Shown: piece after piece, positions 3,846 to 28,783 of the stretch | Numbering within the stretch: position 1 is the first letter of the stretch | Layout of the letters: every line of letters begins with the position of its first letter | Virus record (IMG/VR): IMGVR_UViG_3300009008_000181 | Location: 1 to 29,669 of that record | Source of the DNA: a virus | Strand: one strand, 5' to 3' | DNA: 29,669 bases | The notes under the pieces: generated by a model | The model's database searches: none | What the model was told of the DNA's origin: nothing | Seen by the model: the letters and a program-made list of their open reading frames with translations, nothing else | Position numbers and translations under genes: made by a program

Positions 3846-3876
3846 AATGATTATGTCTTGCGCGCCACTACTTAGT

Positions 3877-3914
3877 TATACATGAATGAATTAGGGAGCA
3901 ATAATACATGTATA
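3877..3914 (+). promoter_or_regulatory. Hairpin with the start codon of the DUF5659-like gene in its stem
   Basis: TATACATG at 3877-3884 is the exact reverse complement of CATGTATA at 3907-3914. The 22-base loop contains the SD (AGGGAG), and the ATG at 3908-3910 lies inside the right arm. It is AT-rich, so stability is modest. It resembles the start-site hairpin at 453-500 in placing initiation signals in structure. Confidence 0.4.
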
Positions 3915-4120
3915 CTACAAGCGACATAGGAATAGCAGCATATTTACAGTTGAAAAAGTTTAAACTATTAGAGTGCAAACGTTTGGAAACTGGAAAATTT
4001 CATTTTGCTTTTGAAGATCCCGCCGGCGAATGTGCCCCTGCAGCCTTAGAGTTTTTAGATTCAGATTTTTGCAAATTTGACAACAATGTTAGAAACTTAA
4101 AGAAAATTCTCTTCTCTTGA
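3908..4120 (+). CDS. DUF5659-like small protein
   Basis: The 70-residue protein begins YTTSDIGIAAYLQLKKFKL and continues with a strand (KFHFAFED), a helix with a LEFLDSDFCKFD segment and a final K-rich helix. This matches my memory of the DUF5659 family of small phage and bacterial proteins: a T-S-D-x-x-x-A-A-Y-L start, a central F.F.D strand and a Y/F-L-x-S-D turn. The function of that family is not known to me. SD AGGGAG is placed correctly, but the start codon lies in a predicted hairpin stem. It is last in the neck block before the 163-base leader. Confidence 0.65.
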   Translation: MYTTSDIGIAAYLQLKKFKLLECKRLETGKFHFAFEDPAGECAPAALEFLDSDFCKFDNNVRNLKKILFS

Positions 4121-4121
4121 A

Positions 4122-4143
4122 CTTATAAAAAACTATTTATAAG
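4122..4143 (+). repeat. Inverted repeat in the AT-rich leader before the fibre gene
   Basis: CTTATAAA at 4122-4129 and TTTATAAG at 4136-4143 are perfect inverted copies around AAACTA. The right arm overlaps the candidate late promoter at 4130-4142. No T-run follows, so it is not a convincing intrinsic terminator. The rest of the gap, 4144-4283, is very AT-rich with no ORF and no tRNA fold that I can see. Confidence 0.5.
4130..4142 (+). promoter_or_regulatory. Candidate phage late promoter, AAACTATTTAWWA copy 2
   Basis: AAACTATTTATAA lies just after the stop of the DUF5659-like gene and about 140 bases before the fibre ATG. The minus strand of this copy reads TATAAATA, the T4 late consensus. 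An antisense promoter is therefore formally possible, but no minus-strand gene is present to use it. Sense orientation is preferred because all three copies precede plus-strand structural genes. Confidence 0.4.
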
Positions 4144-4283
4144 CAGACGTTCGTTTTATCCCATAAATTCCTATCCAATCAAATTTATAACATTTAACAT
4201 TTTTTCCCATCCTATAAAATAATATCAATTTATATTCAATTATATTTTTTTATTGTCAAATTCATATATAGGAGGAAAAATAT

Positions 4284-7200
4284 ATGGCATATGAATTAGC
4301 AAATGCTATAGCTTCCGGATCAGCTGCACAAGACGTAGCGGGTTCTTCCAATGGTCAAGCTTCTGGTGGCCGTTTTAGTCCAAATGGTTCTAAAATAGCT
4401 GTTACCACTACTAGACAAGGCGGAGCCGGCTCCACAGATCAAGGTGTAGACTTTTACGTATCTTCAAGTGCAGACGGATGGCATCTTAATGCTTCGCTTG
4501 ATTCTGATAGCGGAAACGCGATTAGACAGATTGTTTGGTACGATACAGATACTGTTTTTGTAGTAGAAGGTAACACAACAGTAGTACAGTACAATTCAGG
4601 CTCCAGCGGAGGCTGGGCGCATCAGCGCCTGTCTGCGAATGTAGGCTTTACTGTAATGGACATAGTGTTTAACCCTAGTAAAACAAGAGCCCTTGTTTAT
4701 GGTGCAACAGCCAAGCTATACGCATATACTGTTTCGGATTCAGGCGCCTGGTCGCTTGAAAAGAATTTCAGTCAAGTCGGTCACAAACCGAATGCAAACA
4801 TCAATGATGTATCTTGGATAGATAATGATACATTTGTTGTAGGTGAACCAACAGCAAACACCAACAGAGGTGAGTTGCAGGTCTATCACTACAATGGAAG
4901 TTGGTCTAAGACCGAACAAGTAGCTGGTAGTGCTACAACTATAAATCACTACTATTTAGGTGATTCTGTTACTTGGCACGCTTCTAGTAGTACCATAATC
5001 GCTGGTGCAACAATCGGCGCCGGCGGATCGACTACCGAAGGTGGTTTATTAATGATACCATCCAGTAGTGGATATGGTTTCTTGCCGGCTTCAAACCCTG
5101 GCTGGCATGGATACCAAGTAAATACAGATTCACTTAGTACAAACAATAGTGGTCAACCAAGAAGAGCCTTGCCTTACGGCCTAGGCATAAGACAGGACCC
5201 TGAAAACGATAACGCGTTTTTAGGAGGATTCCAGTCTCAGACTGGTAGCCCTTTTGATGATGGTGTTATCTACACTTTAGAGTCTGGATCTTCAGAAGGT
5301 TGGAGAGTTACTCAGTTATACAACGATCACGCACATCACGTTGCAAGTGTTAATTTTAATATTGATCTTTATGATGGTACAGCTGTCACTAATAACAATA
5401 TTCTTTATAATGCAGATGCAACATTTAAGGTATGGGCAATCGCAGAGTATAATCCACCCGATAATACGGGCCCTTCAGTTTCATCGGTAGCTATTACTAG
5501 TGCAACCAATGCACAAAACAGCACACTTAATGAGGGTGATGTTGTTAGTGTTACAGTGACTATGGACGAAGCAACTGTTGTTAATACAACAGGTGGTACC
5601 CCATACATAACTTTGAGTGTTGGCGGAGTCAGCAGAAACGCTAGCTATGCTAGTGGTACTGGTACGACTGCACTTATATTTCAGTATACGATTGCAAGTA
5701 GTGAAACTACAGATTCTGATGGTATATCTATCGGATCCAACGCGATCGCACTAAATAGTGGAACCATGCAGGATGCTGCAGGTAACAACGCGACTATTAC
5801 ACATAGTGCAGTTTCGGCAAATTCATCTTTTAAGGTGGACACAACGAAACCAACAATTAGTTCACTTTCGGTAGCAGCTAATAACTCTACCGTAACTGTT
5901 ACTTTTGCAGAGGCTGTTTATGCAGGTTCTAACGGCACTGGTGATTTAGTTGCAGCAGATTTTACCTTGGGTTTATCCGGGGGTAATCAAGCTAATATTA
6001 GTTTGAACGCGACACCATCCGGTATTTCAAAAACCAGTCAGAGTATCTGGGTATTGACCCTTAATGGAACAGACCTAGACTCTATAGCGCTAGGAACAGA
6101 AACTTTATCAGTTGATGCAGCAAATAACACATCAATCTATGATTTAGCAGGTAACGCTCACACAGCCGCCGCGAGTACTGTATCTTTAAACAATACAGCA
6201 GCTATAGATGATGCAGTTACATCAACTATAGGCTCATCCGGAGGTACTGTTAAGGCAGGTAATACTACCGTATCACCAGATGTTACAGTTACTATCCCTT
6301 CCGACGCACTATCGGGCAATGTCTCTATAGGTGCTAGCGTTGCAACAGCTTTTGATCCAAAAACAGCTGGAGTCACGCAGGCTGGCGGCGCGGTGGGAGA
6401 ATCGCTATCAGCAGTCATTAGATTAACACCCCATGGTCAAGCATTTGACCAAGCAGTTACAGTTCAGTTTAAGTTAGAGGGTTCCGCTGCAGGATCTTGC
6501 CCAACAAATCTACAGATTTGGAAGAGAAATTCTGCAACTGGTGTTTGGTACCAGTTACCCGGTGATTTATGGAGTTGTTCAAGCGGAACAGTTTCAATAT
6601 CTACAACTAGTTTCAGCGATTTCGCTGCTTTAGGAGGTAATAACATGGCTAGAACAAAGATAAATAACGTACAGTTGGCGCGTTTAGCAGAGTCCAACAA
6701 GGTCTTGCCAGAGGCCATTAACATTACTGGCTCCGCGGAATCTTTAGTAACATCTGTTAATGATTCCGACGTATTCATTCTCCAGCAAGCTGGAGCGCTC
6801 GCAAAACACGTCTCAGGTTCAGTACTTAAAAGTTATTTTGCAGGTGGTGGTGTTGATGTAACTGCATCTGCGGTTAATGAAAATTACAGATTGACGTTTG
6901 TTGATCACCAAGATACGTCACAAATCGGCCTTGCGGTGGATAGTGACCTTCTTTATAATCCAAGTACCAATACTTTGACAGCGACGAAGCTTTCGTCCAC
7001 AAACGTTGACGGTATTCTTGGTGCAAATAGTGCTGCTGCAGCAACAGTGACTACATTATCTGCAACAGGTGATGTTGATCTTGGTAACGCAACATCCGAT
7101 ACCATCACAGCTACAGCTCGTTTTGATTCGGATCTTGTACCAAGCACAGACTCAGCAAGAGACCTGGGTACATCTGCACTTCAGTGGGCAGAGGCACACA

Positions 7201-10293: not shown

Positions 10294-13200
10294 ATGGCAG
10301 CTAGAAAATTTAAGTTCGTTTCACCCGGAGTTTTTCTAAAAGAGATTGATAACTCACAATTACCCAAATTACCTGGAAATATAGGCCCAGTAATAATCGG
10401 AAGGACCAGAAAGGGTCCAGCGTTAAATCCAGTAAAGGTAAATTCATACGCAGAATTTGTAGAAATGTTCGGAGAGACAGTCCCCGGAAACCAAGGCGAT
10501 GATGTGTGGAGAGAGGGGAACGGTCTTTTGTCCCCGGCTTACGCTCATTACGCAGCAAAAGCATATTTCGCCGCAGACATTGATTCTCCGGTAACAGTCA
10601 TAAGACTCTTAGGAGCTTCAGGTGATAATGCAACCTCAGCCGCCGGCGCACAAGCAGGATGGGCAGTAGACAAAGCCTGGGCCCTTATAACTTACCCTTC
10701 GGGCTCATCTACCGCTAATGACCATACAGTTTCAGCGGTATTTTATACGCCTGCAACGGGTACCATGGTGCGATTAGCAGGTCAAGGCGAAGGCGCCGAT
10801 TTTACAAAAGACTCACCAGCTGATTTTGGAACTTCAGTGCTGACAGATACCAACGGAGATTTCAAGATTATAATCTCAAGCACAGATAGAGACACCAAGG
10901 AAGTCCCGGTAAACTTTCGCAAGGGAAGCAAAAATTACATTAGAAGCGCTTTGAATACTAACCCTGTATTAACAAACACTAGTGTATCTTATATAACATC
11001 TGGTACGTTGGCGGACAAGTACTGGCTCGGAGAAACATTTGAGGAAAGTTTAAACTCAGCTTCCGATGCCAAGAAGTGTGGATATATGGTTCAGTTGCAA
11101 GCAGAAACAACTGACTTCGAGGATTATACTCACGATGCATCTGCGGGAAGAACAGGTTGGGTATTCAGTCAACATGAAGGTACCGCCAAAGACTATACTG
11201 CCGAAGATATGCCTTTGCTATTCAGGCTGATCGCGTTGGCTGAAGGTGAAGAGCCTTCAAAGAATTTAATAGTATCAATCGAAGATATAAGAGTTCCGCA
11301 AACCGGAGACACTGATCCATATGGTTCATTCTCGGTTGTTATTAAAAAGGTTTTTGGAACAAAGCTAGAAGTAGTGGAATCTTTTGTCGGTTGTAATTTG
11401 AACCCTAATTCTCAAAATTATGTTGCGAGGCAAATCGGAGACCAATTCTTCCAGTGGTCTTCTGCAGAAAAGAGAAATAAGGTTTACGGAAACTATCCAA
11501 ACAATTCAAAGTATATCAGAATCGACATGGACTCAAATGTCGACATGGGTGCTGTGTCACCCTCTAAGGTACCTTTCGGATTTTATGGACCGGTCATACC
11601 AAAAAGAATAGAAAAAACTGTTAGTAGCGGTGTTATCAACGAGATAGGCGGCGCCAGCACTTTTATTGAAGAAAGTACTCGATTCAAAGCTGCGAATGTA
11701 GCAGACGCAGGTACTGTAACAATCCGTTGGCCAAGTCTAAAGACAACAGTTAGTGCCTCCGTAAGAGGAACAGACAGCTTTGGAGCGGCAGTTTATAAAT
11801 TGTCAGGAGATAATCTCACCAGCGAATTAGACACAGGCATGATAGATTACATTAGGAAGATGCCTGCAGGCTTAGCGAAGCAACAAACTGATGGTATTTC
11901 CGACGGCTCGACAACTGAATATGCGTTCACATTCAGTTTAGATGAAATCCGTTTAGAGGGGTCAAATTTAACTGATACTTCACTTGCGAATGTAACATCT
12001 TCAGTTTTCGTTAGTGGTTCTAGAGCTTGTCAGTCATCAACAGCAACAATTCTTGTGAAAACAACAAATCCAGCGCAACTTAGAGATATGAAATTCACAC
12101 TAGTGGATACTGCAGGGGTTAGTAAAGAATATCAAACCCATGATGCTCTTCATGATGATTACGAAACAGGCGAGGTTAGTTCTAACGGCGCTTCAATTCT
12201 TGCAGACATTAAAGGTTTAAGCTCTCAAGGCACGATTGCAGCACAAATTAAGGCCGCTATAGAATCAACCCTGGGCCACAATGGTTCAATTACTTGTGCA
12301 CTTAGTACGACATCAGCAACAAATGACACAATTACAATTACTCAACTAGCTAAAGGCACCGGCGGCAACACAACTATAAGTGCCGTAACAAATGGTAACG
12401 CAACACATCTTACAATTAATGGCGCCATTACACAAACCGCTTTTGCTGGGGGCGTCGGAAACGCAGAGGGAACCTCATATACTGCTGATAATCCAACAAA
12501 CGGGGTCTCAAACTTGTTAGAGCTAGGTTTCGATAAGTTCCAGATGCCTCTCGTCGGCGGATTTGACGGAGTAGATGTCACAGAGCCGGATCCATTTGCG
12601 AATAGGTTAACATCTGGCAAGACAACTGCCAACTCGTATGCCTTCGCATCAATAGATCGAGCGATAGAGCTTGTTAAGGACCCCGAGTTGATCGAGCAGA
12701 ACCTAGTTGTTATGCCGGGTATCACCACGGATGCACTGACCACAAAGCTGGTAGAGAAGTGTGAATCTAGAGCAGATTGTTTAGCAATAATTGATTTGCC
12801 TGACGTATATTTGCCGGCACATGAAAAGAAGTGCAAAGTGTTTTCTGACAGAATCGGTACAACGCCTTCAAAGGCTGCAAAAGCAATAAAAGCTAGGCAG
12901 CTAAACTCTTCTTATGGTGCGACATACTACCCATGGGTAAAGATCAAGGACACTGATTCATCAAGAGATATATGGGTTCCACCTTCAGTAGTTGCTTTGG
13001 GTGTCATGGCCTATACAGAGCAAAGAGACGAGGTTTGGTTCGCTCCTGCAGGTTTCAACCGCGGTGGCTTGAACGAAGGGAATGCTGGTGTACCGGTATT
13101 GCAAGTTTCTGAGCAGCTTTTATCCAAGCAAAGAGACACACTTTACGAGTCTAGTGTTAATCCAATCGCTTCATTTGTAACTGAAGGTTTGGTTATATTT

Positions 13201-13554
13201 GGTCAGAAGACACTTCAAACAACACCTTCAGCACTGGATAGGATTAACGTAAGAAGATTGCTCATCTTCGTCAAAAAAGAGATTTCAAGAATCGCAAGCG
13301 GTTTACTGTTCGACCAGAACGTACCAGCTACTTGGAACAGATTCCTTGGTCAGGTTAACCCTTTCTTGCAAAGTGTTAAGACAAGACTTGGACTCTCTGA
13401 TTATAAGGTTATCTTAGATAATAGCACTACAACACCAGACTTGGTGGATAGAAATATTATGTATGCGAAGATCTTCTTGAAGCCAGCTAGAGCAATTGAG
13501 TTTATTGCAGTTGATTTTGTTATAACAAATACAGGCGCTTCTTTTGATGATTAA
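10294..13554 (+). CDS. Contractile tail sheath protein, gp18-like, enlarged
   Basis: The 1086-residue protein forms the contractile outer tail. The N-terminus has the sheath hallmark SPGVFLKEID (about residues 10-20) followed by I.GPVIIGRTRKGP. The C-terminus has the conserved RINVRRLLIFVKKEI, FDQN...TW.R...QVNPFL and a final AIEFI.VDFVI strand. T4 gp18 is 659 aa, so over 400 residues are extra. Part of the surplus is a module at about residues 581-723 (M-K-F-T-L-V-D-T-A-G-V-S-K, then IAAQIKAAIES, then a GNTTI strand) that I know from many marine phage virion proteins. It probably projects from the outer sheath surface. SD AAGGAG is ten bases upstream of the ATG. It opens the tail operon and is followed by the tube gene. 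Confidence 0.95.
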   Translation: MAARKFKFVSPGVFLKEIDNSQLPKLPGNIGPVIIGRTRKGPALNPVKVNSYAEFVEMFGETVPGNQGDDVWREGNGLLSPAYAHYAAKAYFAADIDSPVTVIRLLGASGDNATSAAGAQAGWAVDKAWALITYPSGSSTANDHTVSAVFYTPATGTMVRLAGQGEGADFTKDSPADFGTSVLTDTNGDFKIIISSTDRDTKEVPVNFRKGSKNYIRSALNTNPVLTNTSVSYITSGTLADKYWLGETFEESLNSASDAKKCGYMVQLQAETTDFEDYTHDASAGRTGWVFSQHEGTAKDYTAEDMPLLFRLIALAEGEEPSKNLIVSIEDIRVPQTGDTDPYGSFSVVIKKVFGTKLEVVESFVGCNLNPNSQNYVARQIGDQFFQWSSAEKRNKVYGNYPNNSKYIRIDMDSNVDMGAVSPSKVPFGFYGPVIPKRIEKTVSSGVINEIGGASTFIEESTRFKAANVADAGTVTIRWPSLKTTVSASVRGTDSFGAAVYKLSGDNLTSELDTGMIDYIRKMPAGLAKQQTDGISDGSTTEYAFTFSLDEIRLEGSNLTDTSLANVTSSVFVSGSRACQSSTATILVKTTNPAQLRDMKFTLVDTAGVSKEYQTHDALHDDYETGEVSSNGASILADIKGLSSQGTIAAQIKAAIESTLGHNGSITCALSTTSATNDTITITQLAKGTGGNTTISAVTNGNATHLTINGAITQTAFAGGVGNAEGTSYTADNPTNGVSNLLELGFDKFQMPLVGGFDGVDVTEPDPFANRLTSGKTTANSYAFASIDRAIELVKDPELIEQNLVVMPGITTDALTTKLVEKCESRADCLAIIDLPDVYLPAHEKKCKVFSDRIGTTPSKAAKAIKARQLNSSYGATYYPWVKIKDTDSSRDIWVPPSVVALGVMAYTEQRDEVWFAPAGFNRGGLNEGNAGVPVLQVSEQLLSKQRDTLYESSVNPIASFVTEGLVIFGQKTLQTTPSALDRINVRRLLIFVKKEISRIASGLLFDQNVPATWNRFLGQVNPFLQSVKTRLGLSDYKVILDNSTTTPDLVDRNIMYAKIFLKPARAIEFIAVDFVITNTGASFDD

Positions 13555-17908: not shown

Positions 17909-20186
17909 CGAAAAATCAATTTCATTTAATGAACAAGGATATTTAATCTGGGATCACTTTATAAAAGGTGCCGGAAGAAAACAAGGAAGCAAGCTGGGTC
18001 AGGGTAAGTCATCCAACAGTGGAATAACCTGTCACAAAGTTACAGGCAACTATACCAATGTAGATTTCGTCTCTAAAGTAATAAAAAAAGAAAATATTGA
18101 TGTTTATAGAAATCTTATGGATCTGGAGACAAGAAAGTTGTCTTCGCTTGTTCCTGAAGTGAAGCTTTTCAAGATAAAAGATAAAAGATATATTCCTTTT
18201 TACTTTCCAGTCGCCGCAGAAAATGCTACTATAACATCTTTGCTTCAACCAGGCGCCTCCGTCGGAGGAGTTGGCATTAAAAGTTTTTCTTATCAATTTA
18301 TAGGTAAAGATTTTTTTACAAGAGACAAGCAGATAGAGTGCTCGTTAGAGCTTTTCGTTGATTCAATAGAGAACGTGTTTAAAACTCCACCACCAGGCTT
18401 CGCGACACTAGCAGAATTGTTCACAATTTCTAGATCTGAGAGTGTGTCCTTGAGAGGTTCTATGTCGAAAGAAGTTTCAAGTGAGCAAGTAAACAAGCCC
18501 AGTTCACATGAAATTGGAGCATTTATAGGATACTCTGCACCAAACACAGAAGACCTTTTAACACAATCTGAGAGAAGAGCAATAGAAAATACTTCGATAT
18601 CTTTGAGGATGACATATATAAACCACAATCTTAATGTGGCTCAAGACGGCACGGCCACAATCAAGGTAGATTACATTGGTAGGTTGTCCGGTATTCTGGA
18701 TGATCCAATGTACAACATTATATCAACACCAGAAGAAATCCTTGCACTCGCAGATATACAGAAAGAGGTAGATGAAGCTAAACGAAGCGCAAAAGTAAAT
18801 GATGTAAAACGAAAAGAGACTGAAGAGAAGATAAAAAGTATCATAAAAAAGAAAGCGAGTGAAAATTTTATTTCTGTCATGGAAATCTTGAGAAGAGAAA
18901 AGAAATTGCACGAAGAACCAATCAGGCTCATCGACTCGAAATTGTATAATCAATATGTTGGTAGACAAGAAGATCCGACTCTTGGTGTACTCATTAAGAA
19001 TCCTTCGGGAGAGGGGTCACCTACAAATGCATACGACACCGCGAAACTATCCGCACCCGGGTCTGTTATTAGTACTGATCTTGTTACAAACTATGTGTAC
19101 ATGGGAGATTTTATTCAAGCGGTGATTTTCAGCACAAAAGAATCCTTAGAGAGAGCAAAAAAAGATTTAGAGAAACAGCGCCAATCTGGAGCGCTCGGAG
19201 CAAACAAGGTAGATGCAAAACTCAAACCCATTCAAAATTCTTTAGATAATTTAGAAAGTTTCAAAGTCCTATTTGGAAAGGTCGCGATCGTTACAGGAGA
19301 GACATCAGCGATTCAGGTCAACCTAGCGGATATTCCGGTTTCCGTAAAGACTATTTCAGACTTTGTGTTTAAGAATATTGAACAGAAGTTTTCCTCAAGA
19401 AAAACTTTAAAATCATTCTTAGAAGAAGTTGTAGGTCAACTATATCCAATGGCCACAACTAGACACCTTTATAAAGATGCTAAGACCTTGCCTTCAAACA
19501 TTTCAGTAAAAGCAGTCGGCATTACAGGCGAGCGTACCGCAGTACTTAGCGCTGGAAACTCTGAAGTCTCTATATCTAAGTTGCCCAACTTCTTAAAAAA
19601 CTTTAATCAAAGAAGAAGAAAGAAGGACGATATTGATTATATGATAATATATTCTGAGGTTTCTTCAAACAGAAACTCTGGCCTCGCGGGAGACGTAAAG
19701 AAAGATGCGGAAAAGGGTGTGTATCACTTTAACCTATCAAAAGATAGAGGAATGGTAAAGAGTATCAACTTCAGCTTAAACAATGTAAGATTTAGAAAAG
19801 AAGCTTTAATGCTGGAATCTGTTGATTTATACGACGAACTAAAGATGCCTTATAACGCTTCCATAGAAATGGTGGGCAACAACTTGTTCCTACCAGGATC
19901 CATGATATATATTAACCCATCCAGCATCGGCTTCGGTGACCCTAGAAACAAGCGATCAGCAGCCGCCAGGCTCGGCCTCGGCGGATATTATATTGTTATC
20001 TCTGTCAACACTGCATTCACCGCAGGTCAGATGGTCACAAAGTTAGATACTCAACACCATTCTTGGGCAGACGATGATTCCAGACTATCAACAACAGAGA
20101 TGCTTCAAGAGACAGGAATCTATCAGACGGCCGTCAGAAATGTGGAAACAGGCAACACAACTAATCTTAAGGAGCTTTACAAGTAA
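17901..20186 (+). CDS. Large baseplate hub protein (gp27/gpD-like) with helical insertions
   Basis: The 761-residue protein is the largest baseplate gene here. Residues about 664-722 form the barrel seen in hub proteins: P-G-S-M-I-Y-I-N-P-S, then LGLGGYYIVI.VNTAF, then G-Q-M-V-T-K-L-D-T-Q-H-H-S-W. Two long charged helices interrupt the protein at about 283-340 and 411-453 and may form a coiled coil. T4 gp27 has 391 residues, so this is about twice the size. The extra parts could replace functions of gp5 or wedge proteins, but no lysozyme motif is visible. It overlaps upstream by eight bases and touches the next gene as TAATG. Confidence 0.65.
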   Translation: MSDEKSISFNEQGYLIWDHFIKGAGRKQGSKLGQGKSSNSGITCHKVTGNYTNVDFVSKVIKKENIDVYRNLMDLETRKLSSLVPEVKLFKIKDKRYIPFYFPVAAENATITSLLQPGASVGGVGIKSFSYQFIGKDFFTRDKQIECSLELFVDSIENVFKTPPPGFATLAELFTISRSESVSLRGSMSKEVSSEQVNKPSSHEIGAFIGYSAPNTEDLLTQSERRAIENTSISLRMTYINHNLNVAQDGTATIKVDYIGRLSGILDDPMYNIISTPEEILALADIQKEVDEAKRSAKVNDVKRKETEEKIKSIIKKKASENFISVMEILRREKKLHEEPIRLIDSKLYNQYVGRQEDPTLGVLIKNPSGEGSPTNAYDTAKLSAPGSVISTDLVTNYVYMGDFIQAVIFSTKESLERAKKDLEKQRQSGALGANKVDAKLKPIQNSLDNLESFKVLFGKVAIVTGETSAIQVNLADIPVSVKTISDFVFKNIEQKFSSRKTLKSFLEEVVGQLYPMATTRHLYKDAKTLPSNISVKAVGITGERTAVLSAGNSEVSISKLPNFLKNFNQRRRKKDDIDYMIIYSEVSSNRNSGLAGDVKKDAEKGVYHFNLSKDRGMVKSINFSLNNVRFRKEALMLESVDLYDELKMPYNASIEMVGNNLFLPGSMIYINPSSIGFGDPRNKRSAAARLGLGGYYIVISVNTAFTAGQMVTKLDTQHHSWADDDSRLSTTEMLQETGIYQTAVRNVETGNTTNLKELYK

Positions 20187-21352
20187 TGTCTTTCTTATAT
20201 AAAGATGGAAAATACAGTACGACTCGCGACAGCTTTGTGGGAAGAAAAGCTTACAAAGAAAATGCTAAGTTAGACCAGGTTCAAGTTCTGGATACATGGT
20301 ATCAGTATCCAAGTTATGGACTTCTTAACAAAGATTTCGAACCCGTTATATTGAATACTGACGAAACAGGTGCTAACTTAAACATTTTTGGACAATATGC
20401 TGGAGAAGACCTGCGCGCAGCCCCCTTTGTCGCAGAGGCTTTTGACGACTTTAGAACTTATTATGTTAACACCACATTGGAGAAAAACGTTGACTTTCCT
20501 TTATTTATAGATCAGGTCATACCAAAGGTTGCTTACTTGTCTTTCGATGAGCAATATCAAAATTATGTAGCATCAAATATGAACACTTTTGCTTCTTTGG
20601 TTTTGGAGAAAATTTCGTCAATTGATCAATTTAATGAAGAATTGTCTAAAATCATACAAGGAAATATACTTAAATTTCCAATAACTAAGTCCGGTTTCTT
20701 GCTCTCCCAACAATGTCCAATAAATGTTTCAGGTCTCTGTGTCGAGCTAGCGATTTTGGACTTTAATTCAGATACAGAAAAAGCGAAACTATTTGACACA
20801 AAGGAATTTCAGTGTTATGCTGAGGTTGCAAATGTTTACGGCTTCTATGTTGACAAGAACGCGCCATGGAGATTGATAGCTAATTTGCAGAGCCCCATAA
20901 TGAAAGAATACATAGACAGGTACAGAAGAGGCACAGACACTGACATAATTTTAGATAAAATGTTTAGAAGTAAAACACAGTACGAGGATATTTCTAGTGT
21001 TTACTATTTCCATGCAGCTGTATTCAATGAGATGTTAGATATTTTAGAATTGCAGGCATCGTATTCAATTTCGGAAGAAGATTTAATATCATCGACGTTG
21101 AGATATAGAATGTTAGAAACAGGTGTCCCTATGGATCAGTTTGAAAAAAACAGAAATAATGTTTTAGATTTACACAACATATATGCTTCTAGGCATCCTT
21201 TTGATCCGCTGAAACAAGCATCCGGAAAGATCGGAAAGATTTGTTCTGAAAAATTGAAAGAAATTTATCTTGCAAAATCAAATATAAACAGTTATAATGA
21301 GACAACATTAAAGGAATATAGTGATTTTACAGACCCTAGATATCAAAGATAA
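20186..21352 (+). CDS. Unrecognised virion-type protein of the tail operon
   Basis: I do not recognise the family of this 388-residue protein. Its ATG shares bases with the hub stop codon (TAATG), with AAGGAG upstream in the hub gene, so it is translated with the hub and is probably a baseplate or virion protein. It has no signal peptide, transmembrane segment or clear enzyme motif. Notable segments are a Y-G-L-L-N-K-D-F-E-P-V start region (about residues 44-54), G-L-C-V-E-L-A-I-L-D-F near 183-193 and a G-F-Y-V-D-K-N-A-P-W-R-L-I-A block near 219-232. A polar Ser/Asn/Thr-rich tail ends the protein. Its last 32 bases overlap the polymerase gene, so late tail and replication genes meet without a gap or terminator here. 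Confidence 0.75.
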   Translation: MSFLYKDGKYSTTRDSFVGRKAYKENAKLDQVQVLDTWYQYPSYGLLNKDFEPVILNTDETGANLNIFGQYAGEDLRAAPFVAEAFDDFRTYYVNTTLEKNVDFPLFIDQVIPKVAYLSFDEQYQNYVASNMNTFASLVLEKISSIDQFNEELSKIIQGNILKFPITKSGFLLSQQCPINVSGLCVELAILDFNSDTEKAKLFDTKEFQCYAEVANVYGFYVDKNAPWRLIANLQSPIMKEYIDRYRRGTDTDIILDKMFRSKTQYEDISSVYYFHAAVFNEMLDILELQASYSISEEDLISSTLRYRMLETGVPMDQFEKNRNNVLDLHNIYASRHPFDPLKQASGKIGKICSEKLKEIYLAKSNINSYNETTLKEYSDFTDPRYQR

Positions 21353-22451
21353 CTGCACCGGTATTTTCCATAATGATGAATTTTTGCTCGACGGCTTTCA
21401 AGAGCTGTTAGATCAATACTCTTTAGCCTGGAAACATTCCCCAATGTTGGATGACGAAAAGTACAAGTATTTGTATTTGCTTATAAAAGAGGAAGATCTT
21501 TCTTCGTACTGCCATGACCCGGAGCTTTTCATTACATATCGGAAAAAACTAGAAGCCCACCAAAAGGCAGCAGTTTCTGCAAAAGTTAGTTTGCAAGACA
21601 CCTGTTTTTTTGATTTGCTACCTGAACATCAATTATTGAAGTGGTTCAGAGTTCGAGCTGGAGCCATGGACAATTTGCAAAAAACAGTACCCTTTCAAGA
21701 AGATTATGACATCTTACATAAGGCACATGTACTAACAACGACTATTGCTAGACAGGATATTAACTTCGAGGGTAAAGCAGGTAGAGTTTTGTATAACATT
21801 TTCGGGTCGGCAACAGGAAGACTAACAACTCGAAGAGGCTCAGTCCCAGTTTTGACCTTAAAGAGAGAACAGAGAGAATTGATTAAGCCTCAGAACGATG
21901 TATTCGTTGAGCTAGATTTAAACGCTGCAGAAGTAAGAACGTTGATAGCTCTTTCAGGCCGAGAGCAGCCACAGGGCGACATTCACGAGTGGGTTGTGAA
22001 GAATGTGTTTGATGGAGAGAAAGAGCGCACAAAAGCGAAGGTAGAGTTGTTTGCCTGGCTGTATAATCCTTCGAGTTCGAAAAGTCAATTTGACCAAATT
22101 TTTTCGCGGACAATTTTTCGAGATTTTTTTGCCCCTGAAGACCAAGTGCTTACAACGCCATTTGGACGAAGACTTGCCGTAGATGAAAGAAAAGCACAAA
22201 ATTACTTGCTTCAATCAACAACATCCGATATAGTTATACAAAACGCGTACAAGATTATGAAGATGCTTAAAGGTAAAAAGTCTAAAATAGCGTTCACATT
22301 ACACGATTCGATTATTGTTGACATGGACAAAAAAGATGCTATAATGTTAAGAGATATAAAAGAGCAGTTTGAGGAAACACCTTGGGGTCCTTTTAGAAGT
22401 ACGTGTAAAATCGGTAAAACATTTGGTGATTTAAAGGATTTGGTGATTTGA
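21321..22451 (+). CDS. Compact family-A DNA polymerase, polymerase domain only
   Basis: The 376-residue protein has the complete set of Pol I-type motifs. T-G-R-L is at 165-168. Motif A is D199-L-N-A-A-E204-V-R206. The O helix has R236, K240, F244 and Y248 at the canonical spacing of four (E. coli R754, K758, F762, Y766). The Q-helix-like N-Y-L-L-Q-S-T-T-S-D-I runs from 294, and motif C is H328-D329-S330 where most members have H-D-E. There is no 3'-5' or 5'-3' exonuclease domain, and the protein is about half the length of T7 polymerase. The start is GTG at 21321 behind AAAGGA, overlapping the upstream gene by 32 bases. The metal ligands D199 and D329 are present, so activity is plausible. 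It could be a repair or gap-filling enzyme rather than the replicase. Confidence 0.9.
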   Translation: MILQTLDIKDNCTGIFHNDEFLLDGFQELLDQYSLAWKHSPMLDDEKYKYLYLLIKEEDLSSYCHDPELFITYRKKLEAHQKAAVSAKVSLQDTCFFDLLPEHQLLKWFRVRAGAMDNLQKTVPFQEDYDILHKAHVLTTTIARQDINFEGKAGRVLYNIFGSATGRLTTRRGSVPVLTLKREQRELIKPQNDVFVELDLNAAEVRTLIALSGREQPQGDIHEWVVKNVFDGEKERTKAKVELFAWLYNPSSSKSQFDQIFSRTIFRDFFAPEDQVLTTPFGRRLAVDERKAQNYLLQSTTSDIVIQNAYKIMKMLKGKKSKIAFTLHDSIIVDMDKKDAIMLRDIKEQFEETPWGPFRSTCKIGKTFGDLKDLVI

Positions 22452-23287
22452 AAACAATATTGGGCATAGGTACAGCAGGCAGCAACGTTGTAAGGCAACT
22501 TGGCGAACACAAGGTGTATAAACCATACACAATTTGTACCAAAAATCAAAAAACAACAAAATACCACTTCAACCTACCCGAACTCGACGGTCCCGAGGAA
22601 TACGAGTCGATGGATATGACAAAGCTAGAGAAGTGGCTGTGCACAATCGAAAAAAATTGCACCGTATTTCTATGCGGAGCATCCAATTCGTCGGGCATCA
22701 CCCTACGAGCGCTCCACTTTCTACACCAAAGAGGTGTAAAAATGGACATTGTGTATTTTACGCCCGAGATCGAGGTTCTTTCTGAGGAGAAAACTTTATG
22801 CGAAAGGGCTGTGAAGGGCGTTTTGCAAAATTATGCTCGAAGTGGCCTATTTGAAAAAATTTGTCTCGTATCCAACCTCCGGTTGGAGCAAATCGCGGGA
22901 TCGACGAATGTGTTTGATTATTATGATCAAATAAACCGTGTATTTACAAGTACTTACTATATGATGGATGTGTTTAAAAATACAGAACCGGTTACTTCCA
23001 CCTTTAAAAGACCAAATGCTCCTTGTAGGATAACCACTATTGGCCTGGGATCATTAGAGAATGACGATTTAACGTTTTTTCCTTTCAATCAAGAGGTGGA
23101 AGTGGTATACTATTATGGTATCAATGAAGAAAAGTTAAAAACAGAAGAAAACTTGTTCAGAACAATAACAAACACAGTAAAATCAAAAATTACAGAAGAG
23201 AGAAAAGTGAGCTTTGGGATTTTTCCAACACAATATGAAGATGACTACATTTACGTGGAATACTTTTCTCCAAAAATTCAAAAATAA
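22448..23287 (+). CDS. Divergent tubulin/FtsZ-like protein
   Basis: The 279-residue protein starts at TTG, sharing TTGA with the polymerase stop. Residues 3-15 (TILGIGTAGSNVV) match the FtsZ T1 nucleotide loop G-x-G-x-x-G-x-N. Residues 72-83 (TVFLCGASNSSG) occupy the place of the tubulin signature loop GGGTGTG, in degenerate form G-A-S-N-S-S-G. Residues 139-149 (CLVSNLRLEQI) align with FtsZ I-P-N-x-x-L-x-E-I. The tail, with VSFGIFPTQ.EDD.IYVEYFS, mirrors the FtsZ strand pair I-I-F-G...D.I.V.V. The T7 catalytic loop (GxxNxDxxD) is not recognisable near 175-190, so GTP hydrolysis may be weak or absent. A filament or scaffold role is inferred. A different Rossmann-type nucleotide-binding protein is the main alternative. 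Confidence 0.7.
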   Translation: MKTILGIGTAGSNVVRQLGEHKVYKPYTICTKNQKTTKYHFNLPELDGPEEYESMDMTKLEKWLCTIEKNCTVFLCGASNSSGITLRALHFLHQRGVKMDIVYFTPEIEVLSEEKTLCERAVKGVLQNYARSGLFEKICLVSNLRLEQIAGSTNVFDYYDQINRVFTSTYYMMDVFKNTEPVTSTFKRPNAPCRITTIGLGSLENDDLTFFPFNQEVEVVYYYGINEEKLKTEENLFRTITNTVKSKITEERKVSFGIFPTQYEDDYIYVEYFSPKIQK

Positions 23288-23290
23288 ATA

Positions 23291-23319
23291 TTGACACAGA
23301 TTAGAAAATAAGATATTAT
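23291..23319 (+). promoter_or_regulatory. Sigma70-type early promoter of the ParB-like gene
   Basis: TTGACA at 23291-23296 and TATTAT at 23314-23319 are separated by 17 bases, a consensus-quality host promoter in the gap between the tubulin-like and ParB-like genes. The sequence from the -10 onward (TATTATAAGAATAT) is identical in the gp32 promoter. The predicted start is near 23326, giving a leader of about 19 bases. Confidence 0.85.
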
Positions 23320-23344
23320 AAGAATATAAACTAAAAGGAACAAA

Positions 23345-24361
23345 ATGAACAGAGAACAATACGAAGACCTCAAGGTTACGATACAAAATTTTGATCAAAC
23401 TTACGTGTTTGATGTAGATCCTTCGCTAGTGTATGAGGATACAGCAACTTCACAAATTAGGCAAAAAGGAGCAGTCATCAAGAAGGTTCCTGCTATGGTT
23501 GCGGATATCGAGGCAAATGGGCAAGAAATTCCCGCAGACGTAAGAGTGATGCCTGATGGAACTTTTGAGCTTAAAGATGGAATAACCAGATGGCTTTCCC
23601 AGAAGAAAATTCCAGGCGGAAAGCTCAAAGTGTCTGTATATCATGACACAATATTTACAAATGAAGACGAGTGGACATTTCATCAAATTGAAGCAAATGA
23701 ACACGAAACTGCAACATCGAATTCAAAAAAAGACATCGCTTTTCAGGTCGAAAAGCTTTGGACATCAGGCGCTCTAGAAAGAAGACTAGGGTATCGATAT
23801 ATAGGAAATGAAGCTCGCTTTATGAGAGAGGCACCTACGCTTTTAAAGAGTCAAACTTATAAGAGAGCTTCTGTTACCAAGAAATCACTTGAAAATTATT
23901 TAAAAAAGTGTGTCAACAGTTCATCAAAGGTAAAGAGTAGGTATCACAATTATACAAAAGGCCCCAACGGGACTTGTTGGGAGACGTTTAGTCAACTAAA
24001 CACTTTGGGGTGGTCTGGAAATAAAGCAAATGATATTTGTAACAATATTGCAATATACGGAATGTATGACGCCGGCGAGGCAAAGGATATAGCTGGGTAT
24101 GTCTGGATAAAAGCATCCAAGAATCCAAATGCGAAATATTATCTTTTAGCGTGGGTTGGCAACTTGTCCAACAAAAACAATACAGGCATCAAAAAAGAAA
24201 GACAAAGGATTTTTGATGCTTATAAAACAGAAATGCAAAATCATCCAAAGTTTAAAGTTCCTATGTTTGATGGTATCTTTTTCTTGCCACAAATTAAGAC
24301 AGGCAAAGACAAGGAGATTCTACAAAAACTTTACTCGCCCCAAGAATTAAACTTGACATAA
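23345..24361 (+). CDS. ParB-N-domain protein
   Basis: The 338-residue protein has a ParB/sulfiredoxin-like N-terminal domain at about residues 25-100. IR..G..IKKVPAMVADIEANGQ.IPADVRV is followed by ELKDGITRW at 75-83, corresponding to the dG.hR-type loop that binds nucleotide in ParB-like folds. The rest (about 130-338) is basic and helical and is not recognised; several Trp and Lys/Arg-rich stretches would suit DNA contact. No ParA partner lies nearby. Proteins of this kind occur in phages as nucleases or DNA-binding regulators. The gene has its own strong host-type promoter, which suggests early expression. SD AAAGGA is seven bases upstream. Confidence 0.65.
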   Translation: MNREQYEDLKVTIQNFDQTYVFDVDPSLVYEDTATSQIRQKGAVIKKVPAMVADIEANGQEIPADVRVMPDGTFELKDGITRWLSQKKIPGGKLKVSVYHDTIFTNEDEWTFHQIEANEHETATSNSKKDIAFQVEKLWTSGALERRLGYRYIGNEARFMREAPTLLKSQTYKRASVTKKSLENYLKKCVNSSSKVKSRYHNYTKGPNGTCWETFSQLNTLGWSGNKANDICNNIAIYGMYDAGEAKDIAGYVWIKASKNPNAKYYLLAWVGNLSNKNNTGIKKERQRIFDAYKTEMQNHPKFKVPMFDGIFFLPQIKTGKDKEILQKLYSPQELNLT

Positions 24362-24381
24362 ATAACAAAACATAGTATTAT
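24353..24381 (+). promoter_or_regulatory. Sigma70-type promoter of gene 32
   Basis: TTGACA at 24353-24358 lies over the last codons of the ParB-like gene, and TATTAT is at 24376-24381, with a 17-base spacer. The -10 and following bases repeat those of the promoter at 23291-23319. The predicted start near 24388 leaves an 80-base leader containing a hairpin and an A-rich tract. Confidence 0.85.
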
Positions 24382-24394
24382 AAGAATATGAGTT

Positions 24395-24467
24395 GGTCAG
24401 GATATTTGCTGACCTGCTATAGCCGAGAGTGTGCAAAAAAACAACATACCATAAGGAGGTAATAATA
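24395..24467 (+). promoter_or_regulatory. Gene 32 leader: hairpin plus A-rich tract, possible autogenous operator
   Basis: GGTCAG at 24395-24400 and CTGACC at 24409-24414 form a perfect 6-bp stem with an 8-base loop. An A-rich stretch with little pairing (about 24434-24450) and the strong SD AAGGAGG follow. T4 gene 32 is autoregulated by gp32 binding an unstructured leader next to a folded element (a pseudoknot). The layout here is similar, but I could not find a convincing pseudoknot partner. Function is inferred. Confidence 0.45.
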
Positions 24468-25220
24468 ATGGCACTTAATTTAGACGCAATGAAAGCGAAG
24501 TTAGATAAACTTAATGGAAAGGGTGAAGGAAAGAAGAATTTCTGGCGCCCAGAAGACGGAGAAAGCAATATTCGTATTGTTTCCACTCCAGATGGTGATC
24601 CTTTCAAGGAGAAGTTCTTCCACTATGGAATCGGTGGACAGTCTTTTCTTTGCCCGAAGCGAAACTTCGGAGATGATTGCCCAGCATGCAATTTTGCAAA
24701 CAAGTTGTGGAACGAGGGTACAGAAGAGAGCAAGCGACAAGCAAAGGAAATGTTCGCAAAGCAGAGGTTCTTTTCACCGGTTCTTGTTCGAGGAGAAGAA
24801 GCTGAAGGTATCAGAGTCTGGGGCTATGGTAAGATGGCTTATGAAAAGTTGCTTACAATTGTTCTCGACCCTGATTACGGAGACATTACAGACCCCGAGA
24901 CTGGCAACGATCTTAAGTTGATGTACGGCAAGCTACCCGGAGCTAGCTTTCCTCGTACTGACATTCGACCTAGGCCACGAAAGACCACCCTTTGTGACGA
25001 AGCTGTTGGTGGTGATGAAAGATGTGCGGAACTTTTGGAGACAATTCCGAACTTTGACGAAATTTTCGAGAGAAAGACAACAGAAGAGGTGCAATCAATC
25101 ATGGATCAACACCTTTCTGGGGAGTCTGGAAACGCCGAACTTGAAAAGTTCGGAAACAACACTAATACTACAACTACTGATGCAGTTGAAGATGCATTCA
25201 ACGATTTGTTGAACCAGTAG
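24468..25220 (+). CDS. Single-stranded DNA-binding protein, gp32-like
   Basis: The ATG at 24468 is chosen because AAGGAGGT lies just before it. An in-frame ATG at 24429 would add 13 residues but has no SD and removes the leader. The 250-residue product has the gp32 layout. A basic LAST-like head (residues 1-24: KAKLDKLNGKGEGKK) for cooperativity comes first. The DNA-binding core follows, with zinc ligands H52, C62, C71 and C74 (T4: H64, C77, C87, C90). The end is an acidic low-complexity tail (A-V-E-D-A-F-N-D-L-L) for partner docking. It coats ssDNA during replication and recombination. UvsX, the nuclease and the helicase follow, as expected for functional partners. Confidence 0.93.
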   Translation: MALNLDAMKAKLDKLNGKGEGKKNFWRPEDGESNIRIVSTPDGDPFKEKFFHYGIGGQSFLCPKRNFGDDCPACNFANKLWNEGTEESKRQAKEMFAKQRFFSPVLVRGEEAEGIRVWGYGKMAYEKLLTIVLDPDYGDITDPETGNDLKLMYGKLPGASFPRTDIRPRPRKTTLCDEAVGGDERCAELLETIPNFDEIFERKTTEEVQSIMDQHLSGESGNAELEKFGNNTNTTTTDAVEDAFNDLLNQ

Positions 25221-25228
25221 GATATAAT

Positions 25229-26356
25229 ATGCCTAAAATATCAAAACTCAAAAAAGGTGCATTAGATATTGCCTCAATTCGAGGCATTATCAACAAGAAA
25301 GCTGGTAGGGAAGTGGCACATTCACTTCAGGATAATAATCCAACAGAGGTGAATGAATGGATCCCTACTGGCTCCCGATGGCTTGACGCCATCATCTGCA
25401 AAGGCAGACATGCAGGGATTCCTGTGGGTAAGATCTCAGAAATCGCTGGCCTCCCAGGTACTGGCAAGTCATTCTTGGCTGCTCAGATTGCTGGGAACGC
25501 TCAAAAGATGGGTATCGATGTGGTGTACTTTGATTCAGAGTCTGCTATCGATCCTTCCTTTATGGAGCGCGCCGGCTGTGATTTGGACAGGTTGATGTAT
25601 GTTCAGGCAGCATCTGTTGAGTTTGTCCTGGAAACCATCGAAGAATTGCTAGCTACTGGTAACAAATGGCTTTTCATTTGGGACTCCCTGGCCCTTACTC
25701 CGTCGATTTCTGATGTTGAAGGAGACTTCAATCCTCAGTCTTCTATGGCAGTAAAGCCGAGAATCCTGGCCAAGGGAATGTCTAAACTAACCATTCCTAT
25801 CGCTGATGCGAACGCTACCTTTCTAGTTCTCAATCAATTGAAGACTAACTTGGGAGCAAGAACACCAGCCCAGGCCATGACAGAACCATATACGACCCCA
25901 GGGGGAAAGGCCATGATTTATGCTTATTCCCTTCGTGTGTGGCTCACCGCAAGAAAAGCTAAAGCTAGTTTCATCGTAGATGACAATGGTTTCCGCATCG
26001 GATCTGAAGTGAAGGTAAAGCTAGAAAAGTCTCGTTTCGGGACCCACGGCCGTACCTGTAACTTCAAGATCCTGTGGGGTGATGACGCCGTTGGTGTCCA
26101 AGACGAAGAAAGTTGGTTCGATGCAATCCAGATCTCTGAAAGACTTGAACAGTCTGGTGCATGGTTTACGCTAATCCACAATGATGGGTCTAAGGAAAAG
26201 TTCCAGCGCAAGCAATGGGTAACCAAACTTGAGAGTGAAAAATTCAGAGAAAGTGTCTTGACTATTATTGAAGAAGATGTTATTATGAAGTTCAAGAATA
26301 GAGAAGGCAAAGCAGACGACTTCTATGACGCGGACGATGTCCCGCCGACAGAATAG
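25229..26356 (+). CDS. uvsX: UvsX-like RecA-family recombinase
   Basis: The 375-residue protein has the Walker A motif GLPGTGKS at 74-81 and a Walker B-type strand KWLFIWDSLA at 146-155. The E-S-A-I-D region at 104-108 and the LNQLKTNLGAR segment near 205 correspond to RecA strand-exchange elements. Its length is close to T4 UvsX (391 aa). It catalyses strand invasion for recombination-dependent replication and repair on gp32-coated DNA. SD AGGA lies in an eight-base gap after gene 32, so the two are co-transcribed. A terminator follows. An acidic end (DDFYDADD) resembles other UvsX tails. Confidence 0.93.
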   Translation: MPKISKLKKGALDIASIRGIINKKAGREVAHSLQDNNPTEVNEWIPTGSRWLDAIICKGRHAGIPVGKISEIAGLPGTGKSFLAAQIAGNAQKMGIDVVYFDSESAIDPSFMERAGCDLDRLMYVQAASVEFVLETIEELLATGNKWLFIWDSLALTPSISDVEGDFNPQSSMAVKPRILAKGMSKLTIPIADANATFLVLNQLKTNLGARTPAQAMTEPYTTPGGKAMIYAYSLRVWLTARKAKASFIVDDNGFRIGSEVKVKLEKSRFGTHGRTCNFKILWGDDAVGVQDEESWFDAIQISERLEQSGAWFTLIHNDGSKEKFQRKQWVTKLESEKFRESVLTIIEEDVIMKFKNREGKADDFYDADDVPPTE

Positions 26357-26366
26357 TCACCCACAC

Positions 26367-26394
26367 AAGCCCGGCTCTTCGCCGGGCTTTTTTT
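26367..26394 (+). terminator. Rho-independent terminator after uvsX
   Basis: AAGCCCGGC at 26367-26375 and GCCGGGCTT at 26381-26389 form a perfect 9-bp stem with a TCTTC loop, followed by a T-run. The next gene begins only 14 bases later with no visible promoter. The site may therefore act as an attenuator, or RNase H is made from read-through. Confidence 0.9.
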
Positions 26395-26407
26395 ATGGAG
26401 AATATAA

Positions 26408-27370
26408 ATGAAGAGAATGATGATAGTGGATGCGTATAACCAGTTTATCCGCGGATATATAGTAGACCCTAGCAAAAACCCAAACGGCTCTCCCATCGGC
26501 GGTATGAGGACGTTTATCAATATCCTGAACAAGCTTACAAGAGAGATTAAACCAGATCTCATGGTTTTGGTTTGGGATGGCAAAGGCGGCAGCAAAAAGC
26601 GTCGAGCAATGAACAAAAACTACAAAGGCGGCCGCAAGCCTCCAAGGACAAACTGGTCACAAGTAGGAATGGATGAAGAAGACGTCCTAGACAACAAAGT
26701 ATGGCAACAAATGAGAGTCATTCAATATCTAAATCAGACACCTGTCATCCAGTTCATGGAGAATCTAGTAGAGGCTGATGATGTCATTTCATATGTAAAG
26801 AGCAGCTCCGCTTTCACAGAATGGCAAAAAGTTATTGTGTCTGCCGACAAGGATTTTATTCAATTACTTGACGACAAGACAATTTTACACAGACCTATTC
26901 AGAAGGAATATTTGAATAAGAACTCTATAGTCGAAAAGTTTAAGATCCATCCGACAAACTTTGCACTGGCTAGAGCTATTGTGGGAGACTCCTCGGATAA
27001 TCTCCCGGGAGTCCCTCGCGTTGGTTTAGAAACTGTAGCAAAAAGATTTCCTTTTCTAAAAGAGGAAGAGACGCACTACTTAAGTAGTATCCTAGAAGAA
27101 TGTACCCGGCCAGAGAACAAACAAAAAGTTTACACAAATATTTTAGAATCAAAGGAGTTAATCGAAAACAATTATGATATTATGCAATTATCTTCGCCCA
27201 TGCTATCAATTCAAGCCAAACAAGGGATTGACGATACGTTTGAGCAATATAAGCCCCACTACAATCAAACGGAAATGAGAAAACTTATGCTTCAGGATGG
27301 TGTGTTGACTGTCACTACAACAGACTTGGAACAAAGATTTAATAACATTATCACTTCCTTTTCACAATAA
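26408..27370 (+). CDS. rnh: RNase H / 5'-3' flap nuclease, T4 Rnh-like
   Basis: The 320-residue protein (T4 RNase H is 305) carries the metal-binding acids of the 5' nuclease family in order: D8 (MMIVDAYN), D57 (LVWDGK), E122/D124/D125 (VEADDVI), D147/D149 (SADKDF) and D194/D197 (GDSSDNLPGVPRVG, the helix-hairpin-helix motif). It removes RNA primers and flaps from lagging strands, working with gp32. SD GGAG is nine bases before the ATG. It sits directly after the uvsX terminator. Confidence 0.93.
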   Translation: MKRMMIVDAYNQFIRGYIVDPSKNPNGSPIGGMRTFINILNKLTREIKPDLMVLVWDGKGGSKKRRAMNKNYKGGRKPPRTNWSQVGMDEEDVLDNKVWQQMRVIQYLNQTPVIQFMENLVEADDVISYVKSSSAFTEWQKVIVSADKDFIQLLDDKTILHRPIQKEYLNKNSIVEKFKIHPTNFALARAIVGDSSDNLPGVPRVGLETVAKRFPFLKEEETHYLSSILEECTRPENKQKVYTNILESKELIENNYDIMQLSSPMLSIQAKQGIDDTFEQYKPHYNQTEMRKLMLQDGVLTVTTTDLEQRFNNIITSFSQ

Positions 27371-27406: not shown

Positions 27407-28783
27407 ATGGAACAAGTAAATAACTTCTCAAAGTTTGGCAAATCATTTCAAGAAGATTTGTGTCATCTGATTTTGAACGACCGAATATTTGCAGATCAGA
27501 TGTTTGAAGTTTTAGATACAAGCTTTCTAGAATTAAAGCACTTAAGAGTATTTACTAGGAAAGTAAAGGAATATAGAGAAAAGTATGGAGTCCACCCCAC
27601 ATCTAATATCATGCATTCCATCATTCGAACAGGTTTGGATGATGAACCAGAATCAGTCAAGGTACGAATCCGCGAGTACTATGCGAGAGTTCTTGCAAAT
27701 GGAGAAGTCCCCGACGGTGCAGACTTTATTAAAGATACGGCTCTGGATTTTTGCAAAAAACAAAAACTCAAAGAAGCTCTGATTAAATCAGTTGAGCTTA
27801 TTAAATCTTCTTCTTTTGATGAAGTTTCAAAAGTTATAGACAACGCCCTTAAATTGGGATCGGACAATACACTAGGTTATGATTATCTTGCAGACTTTGA
27901 AGCGCGTTTTGTTAAGAGACACCGCAACCCTATTAGTACGGGCTGGCACGACATCGATGACATTTCTAAGGGAGGTCTTGGGAAAGGGGAGCTTGGTGTT
28001 GTTGTTGCTCCTACTGGTGCTGGCAAATCAATGGTACTTGTACATCTCGGGGCAGCGGCACTCAAGGCCGGGAAAAATGTATTACACTACACATTGGAAC
28101 TTGCTGATACTGTTGTTGCTGGCCGTTACGACGCTGCTATTACTGGCGTTGAATTAAGGAACCTAACAGTATTTAAAGAAAAAATATATGACGAGATTAG
28201 AGAAATAAACGGAAAACTTATTGTTAAAGAATATCCAACTAGAAGCGCTAGTATCCAAACAATCAAAAATCACGTTGAGAAGCTAAAAAGGCGAGATTTT
28301 GTCCCAGACATGATCATCGTAGACTACGGAGACCTAATCCGACCAGAAAATAGCAGAAAAGATGAGAAAAGGCATCAACTGGAAACTATTTACGAAGAGC
28401 TTAGAGGAATAGCTCAAATTTGTGAATGTCCACTCTGGACTGCATCGCAAACTAACAGATCTGGGTTGAACGCAGAAGTGATCACAATGGAGTCAATCTC
28501 CGAGGCGTTCAACAAATGTTTTGTAGCAGATTTCATCTTCACGGTGTCGAGAACCGTGGAGGATAAAAACACCAATCAGGGACGCATTTTTGTAGCAAAA
28601 AACAGGAATGGTCCAGATGGACTGGTGTATCCACTATTCATGGACACGAGCAATGTGAAGATTAAAGTCCTGCCAAAAACAGGCGAAACCGCGAATGATA
28701 TTATCCAAAAATCTTCTGCAGAAAGGTTAGCAAACCTGAAAGAGAAGTACAAGATTTTTAAGAAAGAAGGAGGAAATAAATAA
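27407..28783 (+). CDS. Replicative DNA helicase, gp41/DnaB family
   Basis: The 458-residue protein matches T4 gp41 in length (475). A helical N-terminal domain (about 1-165) precedes a RecA-like motor with Walker A APTGAGKS at 201-208, a catalytic E-L segment at 230-232, Walker B MIIVDYGDL at 302-310 and the sensor-type A-S-Q-T-N-R-S-G at about 345. It forms the hexamer that unwinds DNA 5'-3' at the fork and recruits primase. Primase, clamp and clamp loader are not in this window. It ends in TAATG shared with the reductase start, preceded by AAGGAGG, so helicase and nucleotide supply are translationally coupled. Confidence 0.93.
   Translation: MEQVNNFSKFGKSFQEDLCHLILNDRIFADQMFEVLDTSFLELKHLRVFTRKVKEYREKYGVHPTSNIMHSIIRTGLDDEPESVKVRIREYYARVLANGEVPDGADFIKDTALDFCKKQKLKEALIKSVELIKSSSFDEVSKVIDNALKLGSDNTLGYDYLADFEARFVKRHRNPISTGWHDIDDISKGGLGKGELGVVVAPTGAGKSMVLVHLGAAALKAGKNVLHYTLELADTVVAGRYDAAITGVELRNLTVFKEKIYDEIREINGKLIVKEYPTRSASIQTIKNHVEKLKRRDFVPDMIIVDYGDLIRPENSRKDEKRHQLETIYEELRGIAQICECPLWTASQTNRSGLNAEVITMESISEAFNKCFVADFIFTVSRTVEDKNTNQGRIFVAKNRNGPDGLVYPLFMDTSNVKIKVLPKTGETANDIIQKSSAERLANLKEKYKIFKKEGGNK

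Follow-up and report, generated by a model that had tools for sequence, protein, structure and literature searches.

The open reading frame at positions 22448..23287 of the window (the whole stretch of 29,669 nucleotides analysed here) encodes a protein very distantly related to tubulin and FtsZ, which we refer to as tub. It lies on the plus strand and codes for 279 aa, with a TTG start and the stop codon included in the coordinates. Tub represents a new family within a known superfamily. It founds a phage family of its own, fixed in a module with the order polA - tub - ssb - uvsX - exonuclease - DnaB helicase. Most known phage tubulins come from jumbo phages that form a nucleus, with some from a small number of partition systems, and those reviewed so far are of the PhuZ and TubZ types (PMC7824862, PMC12908238). 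Here, a family of hundreds of members that was missed by sequence-based annotation proves to be a constant neighbour of replisome genes in T4-type phages. What is new is the tubulin family itself, its genomic setting and the loss of its nucleotide site on at least two occasions.

The tub gene is a genuine conserved gene under strong purifying selection. With 148 distinct complete relatives and a dN/dS of ~0.02-0.10 in comparison with close relatives, a chance reading frame can be discounted. In the alignment, the TTG start falls at the same position as Met1 of relatives whose first codon is ATG. It is part of a 4-nt TTGA overlap between the tub start and the polA stop (22448..22451, plus strand), and a TTGA or ATGA at the start that overlaps the polA stop was present in 38 of the 43 relatives checked.

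Membership of tub in the tubulin/FtsZ structural superfamily is close to certain, given the predicted fold, the structural matches, the model of a distant family member and profile scores above those of decoys. The AlphaFold2 model of the window protein, made with the family alignment, has a pLDDT of 92.6 and a pTM of 0.90; for the distant member L075, modelled from a different alignment, the values are 92.4 and 0.91. The model of tub is a complete two-domain fold with a Rossmann-like N-domain, a central helix H7 and a C-terminal domain. A Foldseek search against the PDB gave 422 matches at E<=0.001, and the best 50 of these 422 are all FtsZ or TubZ (top match FtsZ, E 5e-13). VIA-align, in which the model was aligned over residues 1 to 279, gave a Z of 23.4 for CetZ (rmsd 3.1, 256 aligned), 21.7 for TubZ and 20.6 for tubulin, and the L075 model reached Z 24.6 with CetZ. 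Among the viral models of BFVD, the best matches are the 'FtsZ' of an uncultured phage (TM 0.79) and several phage tubulins, PhuZ among them.

The profile comparisons point in the same direction. In hhalign, the tub family scored 42.8 against the FtsZ profile. In the comparison with decoys, FtsZ scored 33.0 and PhuZ 36.9, versus maxima of 21.5 and 21.0 for 60 column-shuffled versions each; reversed versions scored 16-17. A preliminary description of this DNA had proposed a tubulin/FtsZ-like fold on the basis of several motifs in the right order. All of these motifs were recovered from the translation as it had described them (GIGTAGSN at 6-13, GASNSSG at 77-83, SNLRL at 142-146 and VSFGIFPTQYEDDYIYVEYF close to the C-terminus), and they are colinear with FtsZ in the profile-profile alignment. 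It had also named another fold, or another Rossmann family, as the outcome that would speak against it; by structure and by profile, tub came out as tubulin/FtsZ.

We counted motifs in an alignment of the 148 distinct complete proteins (positions below refer to the window protein, plus strand). The T1-type glycine loop GIGTAGSN (22463..22486) is aligned with the T1 loop of FtsZ by hhalign, and its G8 is present in 148/148 proteins. The T4 or signature loop GASNSSG (22676..22696) is degenerate: the signature [SAG]GGTG[SAT]G was found in none of the 148 proteins. No GAGA-type T3 loop is evident in tub. The T6-type segment SNLRL (22871..22885), aligned with P-N-x-x-L of FtsZ, contains a guanine-contact-like Asn143 that is shared by 128 of the 148 proteins. 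Two further candidate contacts, Y159 and N163, are located in the predicted central helix H7 (residues 155-177, 22910..22978, from the model); Asn163 is found in 131/148 proteins, and the spacing of the two residues is that of tubulin Y224 and N228. In tubulin, contacts to the base and the ribose are made by N206, Y224 and N228, whereas G144 touches the beta-phosphate (PMC7064335 Table 2). Judged by alignment and spacing, the counterparts of the guanine contacts, N143, Y159 and N163, are all present in the window protein. The alignment equates tub 143 with tubulin N206 and tub 79 with tubulin G144; residue 163 corresponds to N228 by spacing only, and in hhalign it falls next to the Asp that binds guanine in FtsZ.

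No catalytic acid is conserved in the T7/H8 region (residues 178-193, 22979..23026), and helix H8 is missing from this region of the model. Since none of the acids is conserved in this region in the 148 proteins, the absence of T7 loop acids noted in the preliminary description extends to the whole family; the pattern NxDxx[DE] is absent from the window protein. Position 191 is D or E in 117/148 proteins (Ala in the window protein), and because an acid is so common there, a displaced catalytic acid has a small residual probability, although the acid is also retained in the proteins that have lost the predicted nucleotide site (see below). The C-terminal tubulin-like domain (residues 194-279, 23027..23284) contains the invariant residues Y221, T261, Y263 and Q278. 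Invariant positions are found in this domain and ahead of strand S6 (Q127, R131, S132), not in the phosphate loop.

The predicted nucleotide site was lost in two tub lineages, in which the fold and strong selection persist; L075, the distant member modelled above, is one of the site-less proteins. Asn163 is missing from 17 of the 148 proteins, and all 17 lack Asn143 as well. Residue 79 is Glu in sixteen of them and Asp in one (D79 in L364); L369 has E79 yet retains N163. The alignment places residue 79 at Gly number three of GGGTG[ST]G, and an acid at this position falls in the phosphate loop. The 17 proteins form two separate, well-supported clades in the tree, and two changes are needed to explain them; the site was therefore lost at least twice. 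A scan of all columns for differences between the 17 site-less proteins and the other 131 returned, besides the label 163, only 143 and 79, and these two are the unbiased ones, as the group had been set by residue 163. The joint change, on two occasions, of three positions that are distant in sequence but predicted to line a single pocket supports the pocket itself as well as the idea that most of the family uses it. The site-less proteins are intact, occur once per contig in the same replication module and show a dN/dS of ~0.06 inside their clades. We considered an alpha/beta-type partner for the site-less members and dismissed it, since there is a single tub gene per contig; second entries in three records proved to be fragments of one gene.

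In the window, tail genes (sheath, tube and baseplate hub) and unassigned ORFs are followed by polA and tub, and then by an unassigned ORF special to this strain and the remaining replication genes. The replication genes are given here on the plus strand. The polA gene (21321..22451) codes for a PolA-family DNA polymerase fragment of 376 aa (PF00476, E 9e-12). Downstream of tub we found genes for a gp32-like single-strand DNA binding protein (SSB, 24462..25220), a UvsX/RecA-type recombinase (25229..26356), a 5'-3' exonuclease (26408..27370) and a DnaB-like replicative helicase (27407..28783). This order is very stable: polA is located 5' of tub in 52/52 testable loci and ssb 3' of tub in 56/56. 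Counted from ssb, tub is present in 58 of 60 loci of the lineage, and for one of the two tub-less ssb loci (L187) the same contig has tub farther upstream (L038). The position within the replication module reflects co-inheritance and is by itself no proof of a role in replication. A gp23-type major capsid gene was found in 9 of 9 large relatives (contigs of 131-191 kb); the window itself is a 29.7-kb fragment. These data support the placement of the tub carriers, a large group of uncultured phages, in the T4 superfamily, in line with the T4-like setting assumed in the preliminary description. The combination of a minimal PolA with a T4-type capsid, UvsX and gp32 is unusual. The window's polymerase, only 376 aa long and with its 5'-3' exonuclease in a separate gene, had no match among annotated phages.

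At least 561 stretches in IMG/VR encode relatives of tub, reaching down to ~32% identity. Searches elsewhere were negative. A single-sequence tblastn search of the INPHARED annotated phages gave no tub relative, a single-sequence search of the PDB gave no match, and no relative was found in GTDB genomes. Pfam, PHROGs and NCBIfam contain no model that names the family, and from the latter two only FtsZ TIGR00065 appeared, at E 0.07. A PF00091 match is absent for the window protein and also in 10 large records; the best relative reaches 16.5 bits versus a gathering cut-off of 33, and the few members that touch PF00091 Tubulin or TIGR00065 FtsZ do so far under the cut-offs. Weak Pfam matches to DUF267, YjeF_N and TrkA_N were dismissed as local. 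The open-licence literature yielded no account of a tubulin from T4-like or T4-superfamily phages. These searches agree with the preliminary description, which had suggested a new family and knew of no tubulin in T4-like myoviruses. Its further step to a cytoskeletal protein is more tentative, since two lineages have lost the predicted nucleotide site altogether. Microcystis phage Mel-JY01, the closest isolate as judged by UvsX, is without tub. Its metagenomic relatives gave no tub match near recA in a search that had no separate positive control; a profile of this type does recover the tub family in the family-wide search. The psbA gene, used as a test for a cyanophage host, is absent in 10 records.

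The motifs that define FtsZ, TubZ and PhuZ were looked for in tub and are lacking, and we therefore filed it under none of the three. PhuZ resembles tub in being a phage-encoded protein of tubulin fold and of similar size (~280-340 aa), and hhalign relates the two above the decoy maximum (36.9 versus 21.0). However, the GGGSGS-type loop and the two invariant T7-region Asp residues of PhuZ were not found in the tub family. The same is true of the C-terminal domain PF22334 and of chimallin, which accompanies PhuZ: each was found in 0/15 large tub relatives, with a positive phiKZ control, and PF22334 has no match in the window protein. TubZ is among the top structural matches (Z 21.7). It is accompanied by TubR and an iteron centromere, whereas no iteron-type repeat array was found near tub (20000-26400), and tub is without T7 acids. 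The ORFs next to tub have no TubR-like family match, and those at 20186-21352 and 23345-24361 are without assignment. CetZ, the best VIA-align match (Z 23.4), is only ~15% identical to tub and is a cellular archaeal protein with its GTPase motifs intact. FtsZ gives the best Foldseek matches in the PDB and a colinear profile alignment, but it is 12-13% identical, and tub lacks its signature loop, T7 acids and C-terminal peptide. The best viral structural match, A0A6J5RW92 of BFVD (uncultured Caudovirales, TM 0.79 over the tub query), is annotated as FtsZ by its depositor; it differs in its length of 452 aa and its identity of 13%, and was compared by structural match alone. This entry shows that the record already includes further divergent FtsZ-like proteins from phages.

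As for the function of tub, we tentatively favour, at somewhat less than an even chance, a guanine-nucleotide-binding, probably non-hydrolysing tubulin-fold scaffold that is tied to phage DNA replication. Judging from the conserved residues, most members including the window protein would hold a guanine nucleotide via T1, Asn143, Tyr159 and Asn163. It seems unlikely that the bound nucleotide is hydrolysed in the usual head-to-tail way; because the T7 region has no conserved acid, hydrolysis in trans would be little or none. With less certainty, tub may form head-to-tail assemblies or a fixed oligomer, either of which would contain the nucleotide as a structural part, by analogy to the GTP in the non-exchangeable site of alpha-tubulin. 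Its place in the locus leads us to guess that such a scaffold might gather or position the DNA of the phage or its replication machinery. In two lineages, the nucleotide would then have been dropped and the scaffold retained. It is possible, but rather doubtful, that a core replication component is a 'pseudo-GTPase' scaffold of the tubulin superfamily for which hydrolysis, and in two lineages even nucleotide binding, is unneeded. Several observations argue against the scaffold: the T4 loop is poorly conserved, with the signature in 0/148 proteins, a GAGA-type T3 loop is not evident, an acid is common at position 191, and a promoter-like site inside polA (see below) may allow separate expression of tub.

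Phage tubulins that move or centre phage DNA are known (PMC4244570, PMC12908238). This precedent, the shared fold and the presence of TubZ and CetZ among the top structural matches would be consistent with a dynamic, GTP-hydrolysing filament of PhuZ or TubZ type that moves or centres the DNA of the phage. We nevertheless regard such a filament as quite improbable: the T7 acids and signature loop are missing, 15 large relatives have neither chimallin nor the PhuZ C-terminal domain, and iterons were not found near tub. Moreover, as two clades have no nucleotide site, nucleotide-driven dynamics cannot be needed in those clades. Similarly low is the probability that tub acts as a decoy that caps or poisons host FtsZ filaments and halts cell division. 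T7 Gp0.4 and lambda Kil are phage proteins with other folds that act against FtsZ in this manner. The FtsZ-like fold of tub, with its altered T7 region, would suit this role, and phage inhibitors of FtsZ are known (PMC13423816). However, CetZ, TubZ and tubulin match the structure at least as well as FtsZ, identity to FtsZ is just 12-13%, and tub is found in the core replication module at every testable locus, not among variable host-takeover genes.

The tight linkage to polA and ssb could also indicate a non-polymerising adaptor or guanine-nucleotide sensor of the replisome, with the tubulin fold serving as its platform for binding. The invariant residues (Q127, R131, S132 and those of the C-terminal domain, not the phosphate loop) and the dispensable predicted nucleotide site would agree with this role. 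We still think it unlikely because, to our knowledge, the characterised members of the tubulin/FtsZ superfamily self-associate. A chance likeness of some other Rossmann-type protein (NAD-binding, TrkA-N-like) to tubulin has next to no probability. TrkA_N does match 21/44 members weakly (best E 9e-6), but the best match of this type in L066 is confined to residues 67-114, around the T4 loop, whereas the entire two-domain fold matches FtsZ, TubZ and tubulin with Z above 20 and the profile alignment with FtsZ is colinear.

The family is relevant to the roles of tubulins beyond spindles and cell division, and to the question whether phages of ordinary size use filaments to organise replication. 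Owing to the two site losses, the question of a 'tubulin without GTP' can be tested by comparing site-bearing with site-less relatives.

Several further features of these loci were observed. A perfect sigma-70-type promoter match (TTGACA-16-TATAAT with TG) is located at 22318-22345 in the 3' end of polA, 130 bases ahead of the tub start, and recurs at the same spot in 14 of 37 relatives. This site suggests that tub may be expressed apart from polA; the match may partly reflect the protein code (VDM...DAIM). The ORF at 23345-24361 (338 aa), between tub and ssb, has no family match and occurs only in the near-identical contigs L001-L004; the start of its protein resembles a ParB-type N-domain by eye. 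It has near-identical promoter-like sites (TTGACA-17-TATTAT) on both sides (23291-23319 and 24353-24381), and many relatives have a single site of this type between tub and ssb. The ORF thus looks like an insertion together with a copied promoter.

In a second large clade, a gene of ~104 aa (YHKLVRDRIPEII...) lies between polA and tub (L041:4687-5007, L066:4690-5004, L121:1007-1318 and others); it appears MazG-like by eye and has no Pfam match. The tub C-termini of this clade (e.g. L066:5832-5858) carry a conserved acidic tail, DDQ(D/E)I(S/G), beyond the fold. This tail is missing from the window protein and could bind a partner. In L113, polA and tub are separated by an inserted lipoprotein-like ORF of 638 aa (2706-4622), which contains MopE metal-binding repeats and a weak VWA domain. 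Finally, the tail sheath protein of the window (10294-13554) is 1086 aa long and thus roughly twice as long as the PHROG sheath model that it matches (phrog_23, 496).
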